A stretch of DNA of 8,155 nucleotides from Myxococcota bacterium (GTDB taxonomy: Bacteria > Myxococcota > Polyangia > GCA-2747355 > JAKLHH01), in assembly GCA_022710245.1 (NCBI GenBank), contig JAKLHH010000298.1:1-8155 (forward strand), written 5' to 3'. Both the position numbers and the translations under genes were made by a program. A model generated the notes under the pieces. The model saw only the letters and a list, made by a program, of their open reading frames with translations. It did no database searches and was not told where the DNA came from. Shown piece by piece: positions 3,330 through 8,155 of the stretch; position 1 is the first letter of the stretch, and the number at the start of each line of letters is the position of its first letter.

Positions 3330-3977
3330 TCACGCCTCCAGCTGCACCCAGGCGACGAGGAACCCGGCCTCGCTGCGGCAGCCCACCTCGAGCGTCGACC
3401 CCGCCGGCCAGCGCTCGCCGGCGGCGGCCTGCAGCACGGCCCGGAAGCCCGGGGCGGTCTCGCTGAGCTCCGCGTCGCGGTAGCCGAGGAACACCTCGGC
3501 CTGCGGGTAGAGCGCCTTGAAGACCGCCTCCTTCGCCGCGAAGAGCCGCTTCAGGCGCGCGCCGGTCGGGTCTGCCTCGGCCCAGGCGCGCTCCCCGTCG
3601 GTGCAGACGAGGCGCGAGATGCCGCCCTTGACCGCGCGGTCCTCGCGCTCCACGTCGAGCCCGAGGCCGGCGCAGCGCTCGCGCTGCGCGACCGCCGCCG
3701 CGGCGATCCCGCGCGTGTGCGTGATGGTGCCGACGACCCCCGGGGGCCAGAGCGGCTCGCCGCGTGGACCGCGACCGATCGGCGCCGGGGAGCTGCCGAG
3801 CAGACGCGTGATCGCCGCGTGAGCGACGGCCCGGCCGAGGAGGAACTCGCGCCGCCGCCGCTCCACCGCACCCGGCGAGAGCGCGGCCAGCTCCTCGGGG
3901 AACGGCGAGGCGATGGGCTCGGCGCTCTCGGCGCGGGCGCAGAAGGAGACCCGCTCGTCGAAGGGGGAGGCGATCAT
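3330..3977 (-). CDS. 4'-phosphopantetheinyl transferase, EntD-type
   Basis: A 215-residue enzyme expected to move the phosphopantetheine arm of CoA onto a serine of acyl or peptidyl carrier proteins in the cytoplasm. The N-terminal EntD-like domain shows the RRREFLLGR block (41-49). The transferase core shows PPGVVGTITHT (78-88, the substrate SxSH-type motif with T for S), GLDVE (106-110, Mg-binding Asp108 and Glu110) and FAAKEAVFKALYP (146-158, Glu150 and Lys154). Length fits EntD/Sfp-like enzymes. The ATG at 3977 is chosen because family similarity begins soon after it, but it lacks a close strong ribosome site: AGGAG lies 18 nt upstream and instead fits a 5-codon leader ORF. No polyketide or non-ribosomal peptide genes are adjacent, so the client carrier protein is unknown and may be the general fatty-acid ACP or a remote cluster. 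It converges with rpoD and is divergent from the DUF3347 gene. Confidence 0.9.
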   Translation of the reverse strand: MIASPFDERVSFCARAESAEPIASPFPEELAALSPGAVERRRREFLLGRAVAHAAITRLLGSSPAPIGRGPRGEPLWPPGVVGTITHTRGIAAAAVAQRERCAGLGLDVEREDRAVKGGISRLVCTDGERAWAEADPTGARLKRLFAAKEAVFKALYPQAEVFLGYRDAELSETAPGFRAVLQAAAGERWPAGSTLEVGCRSEAGFLVAWVQLEA

Positions 3978-4146: not shown

Positions 4147-4713
4147 ATGATGAGCAACCGCAGTCGACGGCACACGTCGGGGTACACGTCCGGGTTTCTG
4201 GCCGGGCTGGCGCTGGTGGTCCTGCTGTCCCCGGCGAGCGGCAGGGCAGCGCCGACGGCCAAGTTCGACGCCGCCGTGCAGCCGCTCCTCGACGAGTACC
4301 TGAAGATCCAGCAGGCGCTGGCCGCGGACAGCGAGCGCGGGGTCGTCGCGGCGGCTCGCGCGGTGGTCAAGCTCTCGGAGAAGCTCGACGCCCGCACCGT
4401 GAGCGGCCCGCAGGCCGCCCGCTACCGCGAGATCCCGGGCAAGGTGAAGGCCGCCGCGAGCCGCGTCGAGCGCGCGAAGACCCTCGCCGATATGCGCGAG
4501 GGGCTGAAGGAGCTCAGCCGCCCGCTGGCGCTCTGGGCCACGCTCTCGAAGCCGGGCAACGTGAACGTCCTCTACTGCAGCATGGCCAAGGCGAGCTGGC
4601 TGCAGCGAGACGCGGCCATCCGCAACCCGTACTACGGCGCGAAGATGTCCCGCTGCGGCGAGGTCGTCAGCGGGCCGCACAAGGGCACCAGCGGCGGACA
4701 CATGGCGCGGTGA
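4147..4713 (+). CDS. Exported DUF3347-like protein
   Basis: A 188-residue protein with an N-terminal signal peptide: basic residues (RSRRH, 5-9), a hydrophobic core (FLAGLALVVLLSPA, 17-30) and a likely signal peptidase I site after GRAA (about residue 35). It should act in the periplasm. The mature part is helical, and its C-terminal block NVLYCSMAKASWLQRD...RNPYYGAKMSRCGEV (about 140-172) matches the hallmark of DUF3347, a family often found beside or fused to CusB-type metal efflux adaptors. Cys144, Met146, Met167 and Cys170 plus two C-terminal His (178, 185) could bind copper or another soft metal; this is inference. ATGs at 4147 and 4150 are both compatible with AAGGAG at 4136-4141, and the upstream ATG at 4105 lies before the transcript start. 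No efflux genes are adjacent. Its sigma-54 promoter suggests conditional expression. Confidence 0.75.
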   Translation: MMSNRSRRHTSGYTSGFLAGLALVVLLSPASGRAAPTAKFDAAVQPLLDEYLKIQQALAADSERGVVAAARAVVKLSEKLDARTVSGPQAARYREIPGKVKAAASRVERAKTLADMREGLKELSRPLALWATLSKPGNVNVLYCSMAKASWLQRDAAIRNPYYGAKMSRCGEVVSGPHKGTSGGHMAR

Positions 4714-4884
4714 GCTCGCCGGCCGAGGCGTCGACGTCGACGCTCTCCGCGGACTTGCCCGCACTAGGGGACCAGCGGCGCGGCCGAGGCGTCGACGTCG
4801 ACGTCGACGCTCTCCACGTCCTTCCCCCGGCTGGCGCACGGCGCGGCGAGCTCGCCGGCCGAGGTCGACGCGCTCTCTCCGCGC
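4712..4884. repeat. Three degenerate copies of a GTCGAC-rich palindromic element
   Basis: Between two convergent genes the motif GCCGAGGCGTCGACGTCGAC followed by GCTCTCC appears at about 4722-4748 and 4783-4815 (the second with one extra GTCGAC), and a shortened form at about 4857-4880. Copies 1 and 3 share the flank GAGCTCGCCGGCCGAGG (4712-4728 and 4848-4864). The GTCGAC runs form perfect palindromes: 16 bp at 4728-4743 and 22 bp at 4789-4810. They could fold into hairpins in either transcript and may act as a bidirectional terminator, but no T-tract is present. Confidence 0.8.
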
Positions 4885-4900: not shown

Positions 4901-5326
4901 CTACTTCAGCAGGCGCGCGTGCTCGACCTTGGCGCAGCGGTCCTGCACCACGTCGATCCCCGCCTCGATCAGCTTCTGCGCGAAGGCGTCGTTGTGGATG
5001 CCCTGCTGCAGCCAGACCAGGCGCGGTCGCGGGCTCATCGCCAGCAGATCCGCCAGGTGCTCGTCGAGCTTGTCCGCCCGACGGAAGACGTCGACGATGT
5101 CGACGGGCTCGCCCAGCTCGGCGAGCGTGGCGCGCACCTTCTCGCCGAAGAGCTCGCCGCCGGCCTGCATGGCGTTGACGGGCAGGACGCGATAGCCGTT
5201 GAGCTGCAGGTACCGCGGGACCGAGTAGGCGGGTCGCATCGCGTCGGAGTGAGCGCCGAGCACCGCCACCGTGCGCGCCTCGCTCAGGACCTGCTTCAGC
5301 TCGCTGTCGCTCTTCAGCTCTGGCAT
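4901..5326 (-). CDS. CoA-binding domain protein (YccU-like, CoA_binding_2)
   Basis: A 141-residue single-domain cytoplasmic protein with a Rossmann-like CoA-binding fold, similar to the CoA-binding module of succinyl-CoA synthetases but with no catalytic partner domain. Visible blocks: TVAVLGAHSDAMRPAYSVPR (about 19-38, the glycine-containing nucleotide loop), GYRVLPVN (about 44-51), VDIVDVFRRAD (about 75-85), LVWLQQGIHND (about 103-113) and VVQDRC (about 126-131), all typical of YccU proteins. Length is usual for the family. The ATG at 5326 is preceded by GGAGAGAG at good spacing; the stop is TAG at 4901-4903. It appears monocistronic, divergent from the nucleotidase-like gene. The physiological role of YccU proteins is not established, so no pathway is assigned. 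Confidence 0.9.
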   Translation of the reverse strand: MPELKSDSELKQVLSEARTVAVLGAHSDAMRPAYSVPRYLQLNGYRVLPVNAMQAGGELFGEKVRATLAELGEPVDIVDVFRRADKLDEHLADLLAMSPRPRLVWLQQGIHNDAFAQKLIEAGIDVVQDRCAKVEHARLLK

Positions 5327-5476: not shown

Positions 5477-7993
5477 ATGCGCGCCCCGCTCCCCGGCTGC
5501 CTGCTCGTCCTCGCGCTCACCGCCAGCGCGGCCGCCGCGCCGCCCGCACCGCCCGCGCCGCCCGCGCCGCCCGCGCCGCCTGTGGGGCCCGCCGCGAGCG
5601 CCGCGGCTGCCGCGAGCGCCGCGGCTGCCCGCAGCGTCGAGGGGCAAGGCGCCGAGGGTCACCTCGACGTGCTCTTCACCAGCGACCTCGAGGGCCGCTT
5701 CGCCTGGCCGGGCTGCGGCGCCACGCGCCCGCGGGGCCACGCGGACCTCTCGCACCTGATCACCGCCTCACGCCTGCGCCGCGAGGCCGCGCGCCGGGCC
5801 GGCGGCGACGACCCGCTGGTCCTCGGGGGCGGCAGCATGCTCCGCCCCGACGTCCTCGGCGCCCACGTCTTCGGCGAGGGCGCGGCCTGGGCCCCACGCG
5901 CGGTGGACCTGCTCCGCGCCGTGGGCTTCAAGGCGGTCTCGCTCGGCCGCTACGACTTCAACAGCACGGCCTCCTCGCTGGCGCTCTACCTGCGCCTGAT
6001 GCGCCAGGCCGGGATCGCGGTGCTCGCGTCGAACGTCCGCTGCAGCGACCCGAAGGACTTCCGCTGCCGCGGCCTCGGCTGGGCGGGGCAGCCCTACTAC
6101 CTCCACCAGGGCCGCCACCTCCGCGTCGGTGTCCTCTCGGTCGTGCGCGAGGACCTGGTGCGCCGCCTCGACGCGAGCCGCGCCGGCAGCCTCATCGTCG
6201 ACGAGCCGGCGGCGGTGGCGCGGCGGCTGATCCGCAAGCTCCGCCGCGAGGAGCGCGTGGACCTGGTCGTGCTCCTCGCCAGCGTCAACCTGGAGAGCGA
6301 CACGCCGCAGCCGGTGATCGCGCTCACCCGCCGCCTCGGGGCCGACACCCCCGACCTGATCATCGCCGACGCGATGTTCGACCCGGAGAGCCAGGCCTTC
6401 ATCGACTACGCGCGCGTCCACGACGGGCCACCGATCACCGGCACCGATCGCTTCGGCCAGCACCTCGGACAGGCGAGCTTCCGCTTTCGTCATCGCCCGG
6501 GGGCGCTCACCCTCGAACGGCCGCAGATCTCCGTCTCCTCCGCGCGCAAGGTCACGCCCGACGAGGACGCGGTCCCGCTCGTGCAGGACCTCCTCGGCGA
6601 GCTCTGCCGCACGCTGAGCACGCCGGTCGGAAACGCGCACCTCAGGAGCCCCCTCGATCGCGACGGCTTCATCCGCTACGTCCTCGAGATCCTGCGCAAG
6701 CGGACCGGCGCCGAGGTGGCGGCCCTCAACGACAGCGCCGTCCCCGACACGACCTTCCCCATGCGCGGCCGCCTCACGCGCGAGAAGCTGCTGCGCGCCC
6801 TGCGCAACGAGACCCGCGTCGGCACGCTCCGCGTCAGCGGCGACCGTCTCCTCTCGCTCCTCGGCGGCTACGCCGGCGGCAGCGCGGCCGCGCTCCGCGT
6901 CCTCGGCCTCGAGAAGGTGGCCGGGAGCTGGTACGTGAACAGCCGGCCGCTGATGAGCTCGCACCACTACCTCGTCGCGACCACGAGCTTCGTCGCCCGC
7001 GGCGGCGAGGGCCTGCTCGCGCTCTCCTCCGAGAGCTTCCGCCGCTCCTGGTTCACGCTGCGTCGCGGGGTGATCGACTTCTTCGACGGCGACGGCCAGG
7101 CCGCGCTCGACCGCGACCCCGACGTGGACCTGCGCAAGGACTTCCGCGACCCCTGGGACCGCTGGCTCTTCTGGGGGAGCACCGACCTCGGCGTCTCCCT
7201 CGCCACGCAGTCGGTCTGGAACGGCGACGACGGCAATCGCTACTCGCTGCCGCCGCTCAAGCGCGCGAGCGTCACCTCGGTGAACGCCCGGCTCACGCTG
7301 AGCGGCGGCGCCTCGACGCGGCACCACGCGCTCGAGGCCGACCTCAGCCTGCAGTACGGCGAGACCTGGACGCGGGCCGCGGGCGCCACCAGCACCACCG
7401 CCGCCGAGACCCTCGACAAGATCCAGGGGAACTTCCTCTACCGCCTGCCGCTGCTGAAGAACCTGCGGGGGCTGGGCGCCTGGTACATCCCGGTCCCCTA
7501 CGCCGAGGGCTACCTGATCAGCGAGTTCACACCGAGCGGGAGCTACACCGATCCGGCGACCGGGGCCACGCAGACCTACCACTACCTCGACCTCGGCGGC
7601 ACCGTCGGGGCGGGGCTCGGCCTGCAGCCCGGGCTCTTCTTCAAGACCGGCTTCGCGCTCCGGGGCGAGGCGCTCAGCCCCGGCCCCGAGCACGCGCTCC
7701 GCACCGGCCTCTACGTCGGCTACACGCTGCGGCGGATGACCCTCGTCGCGTCGCCGCGCTTTCCGCTGCAGGCCGAGTCGCGCCTCGACTTCTTCCTCAC
7801 CGACCTCGGGGTCAGCCTGCGCCGCGAGCTGACCCTCGACTCCAGGCTCAGCTTTGGCCTCAAGCCGCCGCTCTTCGTCACCCTCACGCACCGCCTCTAC
7901 GTCTTCGACGATCGCGACCACCCGACCTCGCTGGCGAACGACCTCGGGGTGGGCCTGGAGGTGTTCCTCGACCACCGCTACCAGACGCGCTGA
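5477..7993 (+). CDS. Exported 5'-nucleotidase-like protein with degenerate active site and probable C-terminal beta-barrel
   Basis: An 838-residue exported protein. Segments: signal peptide (1-21, cleavage near ASAAAA), a Pro-Ala then Ala-Ser linker (22-51), a metallophosphatase-like domain (about 62-345), a 5'-nucleotidase C-terminal domain (about 375-520; AEVAALNDSAVPD, RGRLTREKLLRAL, LRVSGDRLLSLL, YLVATTSFVARGGEGLLAL), and a region of about 270 residues (565-838) of alternating amphipathic strands that looks like an outer-membrane barrel. Compared with UshA-type enzymes the metal ligands are lost: TNDHHG is TSDLEG (68-73), GGD is GGS (118-120), GNHEFD is GRYDFN (157-162), and the later His motifs are LLASV (266-270) and IIADA (295-299). 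It therefore probably binds a ligand or partner rather than hydrolysing nucleotides. The start has only a weak ribosome site (CAGGGA). It is the first of two plus-strand genes, 102 bp before an ExbB-like gene. Confidence 0.85.
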   Translation: MRAPLPGCLLVLALTASAAAAPPAPPAPPAPPAPPVGPAASAAAAASAAAARSVEGQGAEGHLDVLFTSDLEGRFAWPGCGATRPRGHADLSHLITASRLRREAARRAGGDDPLVLGGGSMLRPDVLGAHVFGEGAAWAPRAVDLLRAVGFKAVSLGRYDFNSTASSLALYLRLMRQAGIAVLASNVRCSDPKDFRCRGLGWAGQPYYLHQGRHLRVGVLSVVREDLVRRLDASRAGSLIVDEPAAVARRLIRKLRREERVDLVVLLASVNLESDTPQPVIALTRRLGADTPDLIIADAMFDPESQAFIDYARVHDGPPITGTDRFGQHLGQASFRFRHRPGALTLERPQISVSSARKVTPDEDAVPLVQDLLGELCRTLSTPVGNAHLRSPLDRDGFIRYVLEILRKRTGAEVAALNDSAVPDTTFPMRGRLTREKLLRALRNETRVGTLRVSGDRLLSLLGGYAGGSAAALRVLGLEKVAGSWYVNSRPLMSSHHYLVATTSFVARGGEGLLALSSESFRRSWFTLRRGVIDFFDGDGQAALDRDPDVDLRKDFRDPWDRWLFWGSTDLGVSLATQSVWNGDDGNRYSLPPLKRASVTSVNARLTLSGGASTRHHALEADLSLQYGETWTRAAGATSTTAAETLDKIQGNFLYRLPLLKNLRGLGAWYIPVPYAEGYLISEFTPSGSYTDPATGATQTYHYLDLGGTVGAGLGLQPGLFFKTGFALRGEALSPGPEHALRTGLYVGYTLRRMTLVASPRFPLQAESRLDFFLTDLGVSLRRELTLDSRLSFGLKPPLFVTLTHRLYVFDDRDHPTSLANDLGVGLEVFLDHRYQTR
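5540..5629. repeat. Low-complexity microrepeats encoding the Pro-Ala / Ala-Ser linker
   Basis: Within the nucleotidase-like gene, 9-bp CGCCCGCGC-type units at about 5540-5580 encode repeated APP, followed by an exact 18-bp tandem duplication (5594-5611 and 5612-5629, starting GCGAGCGCC) encoding an Ala/Ser-rich stretch. Both repeats keep the frame (9 and 18 bp), so slippage would change linker length without breaking the protein. Confidence 0.85.
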
Positions 7994-8095: not shown

Positions 8096-8155
8096 ATGTG
8101 GGCCAACTTCTTCCGTGACGGCGGCTGGGGCATGTACCCGACCCTGCTCTTCGGC
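8096..8155 (+). CDS. N-terminus of a probable MotA/TolQ/ExbB-family protein, truncated by the window edge
   Basis: ATG at 8096 is preceded by an excellent ribosome site, AGAAGGAG, with 7 nt spacing, and the frame stays open for the 20 codons left in the window. The peptide has a short polar start (ANFFRDGG, 3-10) followed by GMYPTLLFG (12-20), the beginning of a hydrophobic segment. A GGxxMYPxLLxG pattern before the first membrane helix is typical of MotA/TolQ/ExbB proton-channel proteins, which energise outer-membrane processes through the proton motive force. With only 20 residues this is a tentative family call. That it is a real gene start is well supported. Confidence 0.6.
   Translation, partial: MWANFFRDGGWGMYPTLLFG

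Follow-up and report, generated by a model that had tools for sequence, protein, structure and literature searches.

A 5′-nucleotidase fold with a largely lost metal site, joined to a predicted outer-membrane-type barrel in a Myxococcota bacterium

The gene, its surroundings and its domain layout

The window (the whole stretch of 8,155 nucleotides of Myxococcota DNA that was analysed) contains an uninterrupted 838-codon frame that starts at the first ATG past a stop, and whose product combines a pseudo-5′-nucleotidase with a C-terminal barrel (Table 1). Its neighbours are ordinary, encoding an acyltransferase-like protein, an RpoD-type sigma factor, a phosphopantetheinyl transferase, a CoA-binding protein and a small, exported-looking DUF3347 protein (4147-4713) that weakly matches the LIC13259/LIC11441 family. 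At 8096-8155 another gene begins (MWANFFRDGGWGMYPTLLFG), truncated by the window end, which we take to resemble the start of a MotA/TolQ/ExbB-type protein. At the left end (1-135) a CCACCACAGGACG-like unit recurs in short tandem repeats, and a GTCGAC-rich repeated stretch lies between genes at 4730-4880.

Table 1. Features of the pseudo-nucleotidase gene in the window (conservation counts refer to aligned rows)
Feature	Coordinates	Strand	Basis or remark
Whole gene, pseudo-5′-nucleotidase and 12-stranded barrel, 838 aa	5477..7993	+	
Signal-peptide-like start, residues 1-20 (basic start, hydrophobic core, SAAA)	5477..5536	+	sequence reading
Pro/Ala-rich segment, residues 21-58	5537..5650	+	model confidence low
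Metallophosphatase-like N-terminal domain, about residues 59-361	5651..6559	+	VIA-align to UshA; hhalign to enzymes
Former motif I, TSDLEG (UshA D41 kept as D70; H43 replaced by E72)	5678..5695	+	
Cys80	5714..5716	+	Cys in 45/45 rows with a residue there
Former motif II, GGGS (UshA D84 replaced by S120)	5825..5836	+	
Former motif III, GRYDFN (UshA N116, H117, D120 replaced by R158, Y159, N162)	5945..5962	+	
Cys189	6041..6043	+	Cys in 44/46 rows
Cys197	6065..6067	+	Cys in 44/45 rows
Site of UshA H217, reads ASVN (S269)	6278..6289	+	
Site of UshA H252 and Q254, reads ADAMFD (A299, F301)	6365..6382	+	
Clade-specific motif GTDRFGQ, residues 322-328	6440..6460	+	
5′-nucleotidase C-terminal domain, about residues 362-540	6560..7096	+	Pfam PF02872 at 402-514
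Cys377, helix between both domains	6605..6607	+	Cys in 48/48 rows
GGEG, retained C-terminal-domain motif	7001..7012	+	
Linker, nucleotidase part to barrel, residues 541-563	7097..7165	+	model
12-stranded beta-barrel, residues 564-838	7166..7990	+	models; DUF3078 kinship via relatives

Recurring neighbours were sought by BLASTP clustering of 198 genes called in the window and 23 loci, with a GC3-heuristic gene calling that misses genes (e.g. window 3330-3977 and 4901-5326, minus strand). Beyond the family itself, clusters were shared by L001/L063 (overlapping copies of one place), L051/L052 (near-identical, four clusters) and L014/L015 (the genes of a distant subfamily), next to the scattered clusters cl1 (L001/L063, L047), cl10 (L002, L047) and cl16 (L056, L061). 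As no cluster recurred in three of these genomes, no operon partner is named.

Behind an N-terminal stretch of low model confidence (residues 1-58, pLDDT < 50), hhalign and structure comparison revealed the two-domain fold of UshA, which VIA-align matched to model residues 56-558. A preceding sequence-only reading of this DNA was hereby confirmed in its overall observation and partly supported in its interpretation: it had rightly proposed that the nucleotidase fold and the GGEG region of the C-terminal domain are retained. Its Pro-Ala tether was misplaced, since the Pro/Ala segment is N-terminal and the barrel is joined via approximately 23 ordinary residues. The C-terminal domain passes the cut-off of PF02872 (5_nucleotid_C; 26.7 bits versus 23.6), while PF00149 (Metallophos) found no match in the window protein up to E 1 and was absent among the Pfam families listed, up to E 1, for 34 nucleotidase parts of the family. 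The protein thus shares its fold, domain order and GG(D/E)G motif with UshA and the periplasmic 5′-nucleotidases (PF00149 plus PF02872; CD73, NadN and SoxB folds), but differs from UshA in that the catalytic dyad and all but one of the seven metal ligands are gone, PF00149 is not matched, four cysteines are conserved and a barrel is added.

A weak profile match and a Cys soon after motif I also recall the UshA_like_PCGU family (NF041198). However, the window protein scored only 25.3 bits against a cut-off of 275 and reads WPGC, with one Cys, rather than the P-C-G-C/U type, a motif that we took from the family name, from locus L004 and from the accessible part of PMC2398784, where a table lists UshA-like COG0737 proteins with a CxU motif. 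At L004:1501-2280 (and L006; the same Myxococcales genome), a UshA-like frame contains an in-frame TGA within P-(TGA)-G-C and is likely a selenoprotein of the NF041198 kind; it is followed by cytochrome c motifs and has no barrel. In the text available to it, a literature search for the nucleotidase-barrel architecture found nothing related.

The former metal site and its relatives

The seven metal ligands of UshA, in set and numbering, are presumably D41, H43, D84, N116, H217, H252 and Q254. Alignment revealed that the window protein has kept one of them (D70) and lost six, together with the His-Asp dyad formed by H117 and D120 in UshA. The sequence-only reading, which had every ligand motif replaced, was therefore right about the loss of the metal site and about six ligands, and wrong about D70. 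The accessible text of PMC2843633 names counterparts of D41, H43, D84, N116, H117, H252 and Q254, H217 not being among them, as well as F429, F498 and a domain rotation of 96 degrees. The base-stacking F498 corresponds to F505 here, a Phe found in 10/10 sequences of the window clade set, and the window protein carries other residues at the substrate positions R410, F429 (the second base-stacking residue) and N431.

Within the same clade set, position 120 is Ser in 10/10 sequences, position 159 is Tyr, Phe or His, and position 301 is Phe or Tyr. D70 was present in 8/8 sequences with a residue there; in P0012 (56% identical) its counterpart is lost. An alternative metal site built on His was rejected for this clade, as an 11-row alignment of the nucleotidase part showed no His column that was invariant or nearly so.

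Conservation around the old cleft was examined over 10 rows (P0005 being dropped as a near copy of P0004), in segments centred on the ligand columns of the enzymes, with cysteines removed, and compared with 475 circular shifts over the nucleotidase part. Segments of ±3, 4 and 5 residues at the metal ligands yielded 2.71, 2.67 and 2.67 bits versus 2.25, 2.25 and 2.24 elsewhere, values reached by 7, 10 and 4 of the 475 shifts. Segments at the substrate site of the C-terminal domain were weakly more conserved (reached by 35, 25 and 10 of 475 shifts). An initial test had yielded 0/479 shifts, but with loops partly picked with the alignment in view, and the enzyme-centred test is preferred. The sequence-only reading had suggested testing for a conserved patch at the former active site; in the window clade the old metal site is indeed under moderately stronger constraint than its surroundings, though its content is altered.

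Protein searches scored approximately 7990 candidates each, so that homologues may be missed. The window protein itself retrieved 8 matches of 41-50% identity, a profile retrieved 9 (two of them ordinary nucleotidases), and another profile, built on 32 diverse rows, retrieved 14. Two of the latter, P0017 and P0018, proved to be nucleotidases with domain repeats in which the Pfam scan found no barrel, and a third, P0019, is more remote, aligns poorly and matches DUF3078 weakly (E 0.02). Scans of genome contigs gave no loci at first and three loci the second time. At E 1e-3, a nine-row profile matched 40 of 116 class-set and 69 of 235 phylum-set genomes, ordinary nucleotidases counted too; members spanning at least 400 profile positions occurred in 20 of 116 class-set and, from the fetched loci, at least 23 of 235 phylum-set genomes. 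The genome at the centre of these sets (G001) is a Myxococcota genome by its label. Related genomes also encode intact nucleotidases (L008 and L016 in G001, L005 in G002), showing that the barrel-fused family is not the only nucleotidase of those genomes. P0002, P0004, P0008 and P0012 are annotated by one source as 2′,3′-cyclic-nucleotide 2′-phosphodiesterase, which is contradicted by their residues as aligned here.

The barrel was reached in 45 of 48 aligned members, the remainder (L003/P0009, L035 and L041) ending at a contig edge. The 48 rows kept between none and four of the seven ligands, and five rows lack the motif I columns. The window clade retained D41 only, or no ligand where motif I is missing. 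The clade of L030 to L037 kept D41 and H217; that of L036 to L054 kept D41 and, in part, D84 and N116; and that of L065 to L079 kept D84, N116, H217 and H252 in part, with motif I mostly reading N-x-D/E. Six distant rows kept four ligands. In L065 and L068-L071, D84, N116, H217 and H252 are present together, N-x-D/E replaces D-x-H, and an Arg takes the place of the catalytic His; these members are possibly still metal-binding. Among P0012, P0013, P0014, P0015 and P0016, which keep 0, 1, 1, 2 and 5 ligands, P0013 and P0014 retain D41 and P0015 retains D41 and D84. The barrel-fused P0016 (709 aa) is the least eroded member seen: it keeps D41, H43, D84, N116 and H217, and its catalytic His is replaced by Phe. 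Metal-freeness need consequently not extend to the whole family. P0016 supports an active ancestor, and it also indicates that metal binding may persist in some members. A complete metal site together with a barrel was found neither in the 48 rows (at most four ligands) nor in P0012-P0016 (at most five).

These patterns bear on whether the protein might still be an enzyme of altered chemistry, using one metal or none, or catalysing a new reaction in a reshaped cleft. The conserved metal-site loops with their fixed substitutes (S120; Y/F/H159; F/Y301), the persistence of D70 in the clade set, though not in P0012, and the four- and five-ligand members all speak for this. However, the nucleotidase part of the window clade has no invariant His, H117 and D120 are gone, and the members retaining four or five ligands carry Arg, Gly or Phe at the position of the catalytic His; we consider continued catalysis rather unlikely.

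The clades defined by ligand pattern were separated in a quick tree with SH-aLRT support, from which P0008, L039, L076, L035, L041 and L001 were left out. Read by eye, tree and ligand patterns are most simply explained by repeated loss of ligands after the fusion. L080 was placed beside the enzymes with a support of 12 and a very long branch, so that its fusion may have arisen separately. A second, distant subfamily of similar layout (L014, L015) aligned with the family over 649 columns (probability 98.5, E 2.5e-15). Its pseudo-nucleotidase frames with C-terminal barrel (L015:3587-6727 and L014:3751-6816) have no Pfam matches, and the L014 copy contains an in-frame TAG and may be broken or misassembled.

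C189 and C197 are jointly missing in L037, L073 and P0016, which keep C80 and C377; this joint loss suggests the disulfide pairs C189-C197 and C80-C377. The retention of C80, C377 and the barrel while the metal site was lost differently per clade might in turn indicate a purely structural role, in which the nucleotidase fold would serve as envelope scaffold or protein-docking platform with no small ligand. In the window clade, however, the loops of the former metal site are more conserved than the rest, which makes such a role improbable.

Nei-Gojobori dN/dS was 0.05-0.21 for the N-terminal domain, C-terminal domain and barrel each in the three pairs among L068, L069 and L070 and in L033/L034, and 0.12 to 0.44 in four more distant pairs (dS approximately 1 or above), all pairs lying outside the clade of the window. 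Most ligands being lost, a decaying pseudogene could be envisaged, and this is very improbable for the window gene given its open 838-codon frame, the many relatives of the same layout, their low dN/dS and the conserved cysteines; for the family, layout conservation, dN/dS and cysteines refute it. The possibility of a one-off decayed copy was rejected on the same layout and low dN/dS of relatives, in keeping with the sequence-only reading.

The C-terminal barrel

The outer-membrane-type barrel expected at the C-terminus was recovered as a predicted 12-stranded barrel, five models of which, in isolation, had a mean pLDDT of 75.6 to 79.1. DUF3078 (PF11276) was matched by 20 of 36 family barrels at E <= 1, with the best match (8.5e-08) from another member than the window. 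L066 (29.7 bits) and L074 (25.7 bits) exceeded the gathering score of 25, and L043 (20.4 bits) and L054 (19.4 bits) stayed below it. The window barrel itself is below detection, without a Pfam match up to E 5, autotransporter families included. L002 and L030, near the window in the tree, did not match DUF3078, and a profile of the 36 barrels found nothing among PDB sequences up to E 10, so that the DUF3078 link derives from more distant members. Some DUF3078 match was present in 23 of 140 phylum-set genomes, a few within the fused family. Differing from the fused family, stand-alone DUF3078 frames without nucleotidase part were seen in the phylum set (L083, L085, L087-L092, L094), and L015:7446-8483, adjoining a pseudo-nucleotidase gene, also looks like one.

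The best VIA-align match of the barrel was the nucleoside channel Tsx (1tlw), with 16.9 versus 14.5 for EstA, a likeness to be taken with caution as 12-stranded barrels resemble one another. Tsx was absent from the best 50 Foldseek matches listed for the barrel, and differs from it in sequence (8% identity, no sequence similarity found). To our knowledge, Tsx itself has no nucleotidase domain.

A C-terminal 12-stranded barrel is also found in type Va autotransporters, and EstA, AaaA, NalP, BrkA and Hbp were among the best structural matches (Foldseek, VIA-align). With its order of signal, passenger and 12-strand barrel, the protein might thus deliver the pseudo-nucleotidase to the cell surface, which we regard as unlikely. 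In contrast to EstA, AaaA and NalP, the window family has conserved cysteines in its N-terminal part and no autotransporter Pfam signature, none being listed for the 36 family barrels up to E 1. Export is disfavoured by the four conserved cysteines, of which one inferred pair spans approximately 300 residues. In the accessible text of PMC5802855, disulfide-bonded folded segments hampered secretion of the autotransporter Hbp, and some disulfide-containing domains were nonetheless displayed. The cysteines thus make surface display by autotransport less likely, the literature being mixed.

A non-catalytic nucleotidase fold on a barrel

We put at about even odds that the protein is a former 5′-nucleotidase of UshA fold set on an outer-membrane barrel, where it would act as a non-catalytic periplasmic binding, gating or scaffold domain. 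Behind this reading stand the two-domain fold, the loss of ligands and dyad, the 12-stranded barrel, the large family of the same layout and the purifying selection in relatives, each of which is shown or strongly predicted. The outer-membrane location of the window protein is a prediction from fold and family resemblance. The putative signal peptide would export the protein, the nucleotidase part would fold in the periplasm with the two disulfides proposed above, and the barrel would insert in the outer membrane. The nucleotidase part would no longer cut phosphate, and would instead use its former cleft to bind a small ligand, or gate or scaffold the barrel. Our best guess is a nucleoside-like ligand, because F505 is kept throughout the window clade set and the barrel is closest to Tsx in VIA-align; the loss of the F429 and R410 counterparts in the window protein runs counter to it.

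More tentatively, the family could be a Myxococcota nucleotidase-channel fusion with several independent losses of the metal site. Beneath the pore, the dead clamp would take up polar ligands, nucleoside-like or other, and control whether they pass. If true, a UshA-type clamp and a Tsx-type channel would be coupled in one polypeptide.

The protein is a variant built of known parts, a nucleotidase fold with a largely lost metal site and an outer-membrane-type barrel. Family members carry enzyme names that their residues contradict, of which annotation pipelines are hereby warned. Since similar proteins are kept by dozens of related bacteria, an old enzyme seems to have been put to a use other than its original reaction. 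Across the family the outer-membrane-type anchor stays constant and the metal site erodes by degrees, from five ligands in P0016 down to none, with different subsets by clade, so that experiments can ask what a nucleotidase fold that no longer cuts does, and whether it functions as a receptor or gate.
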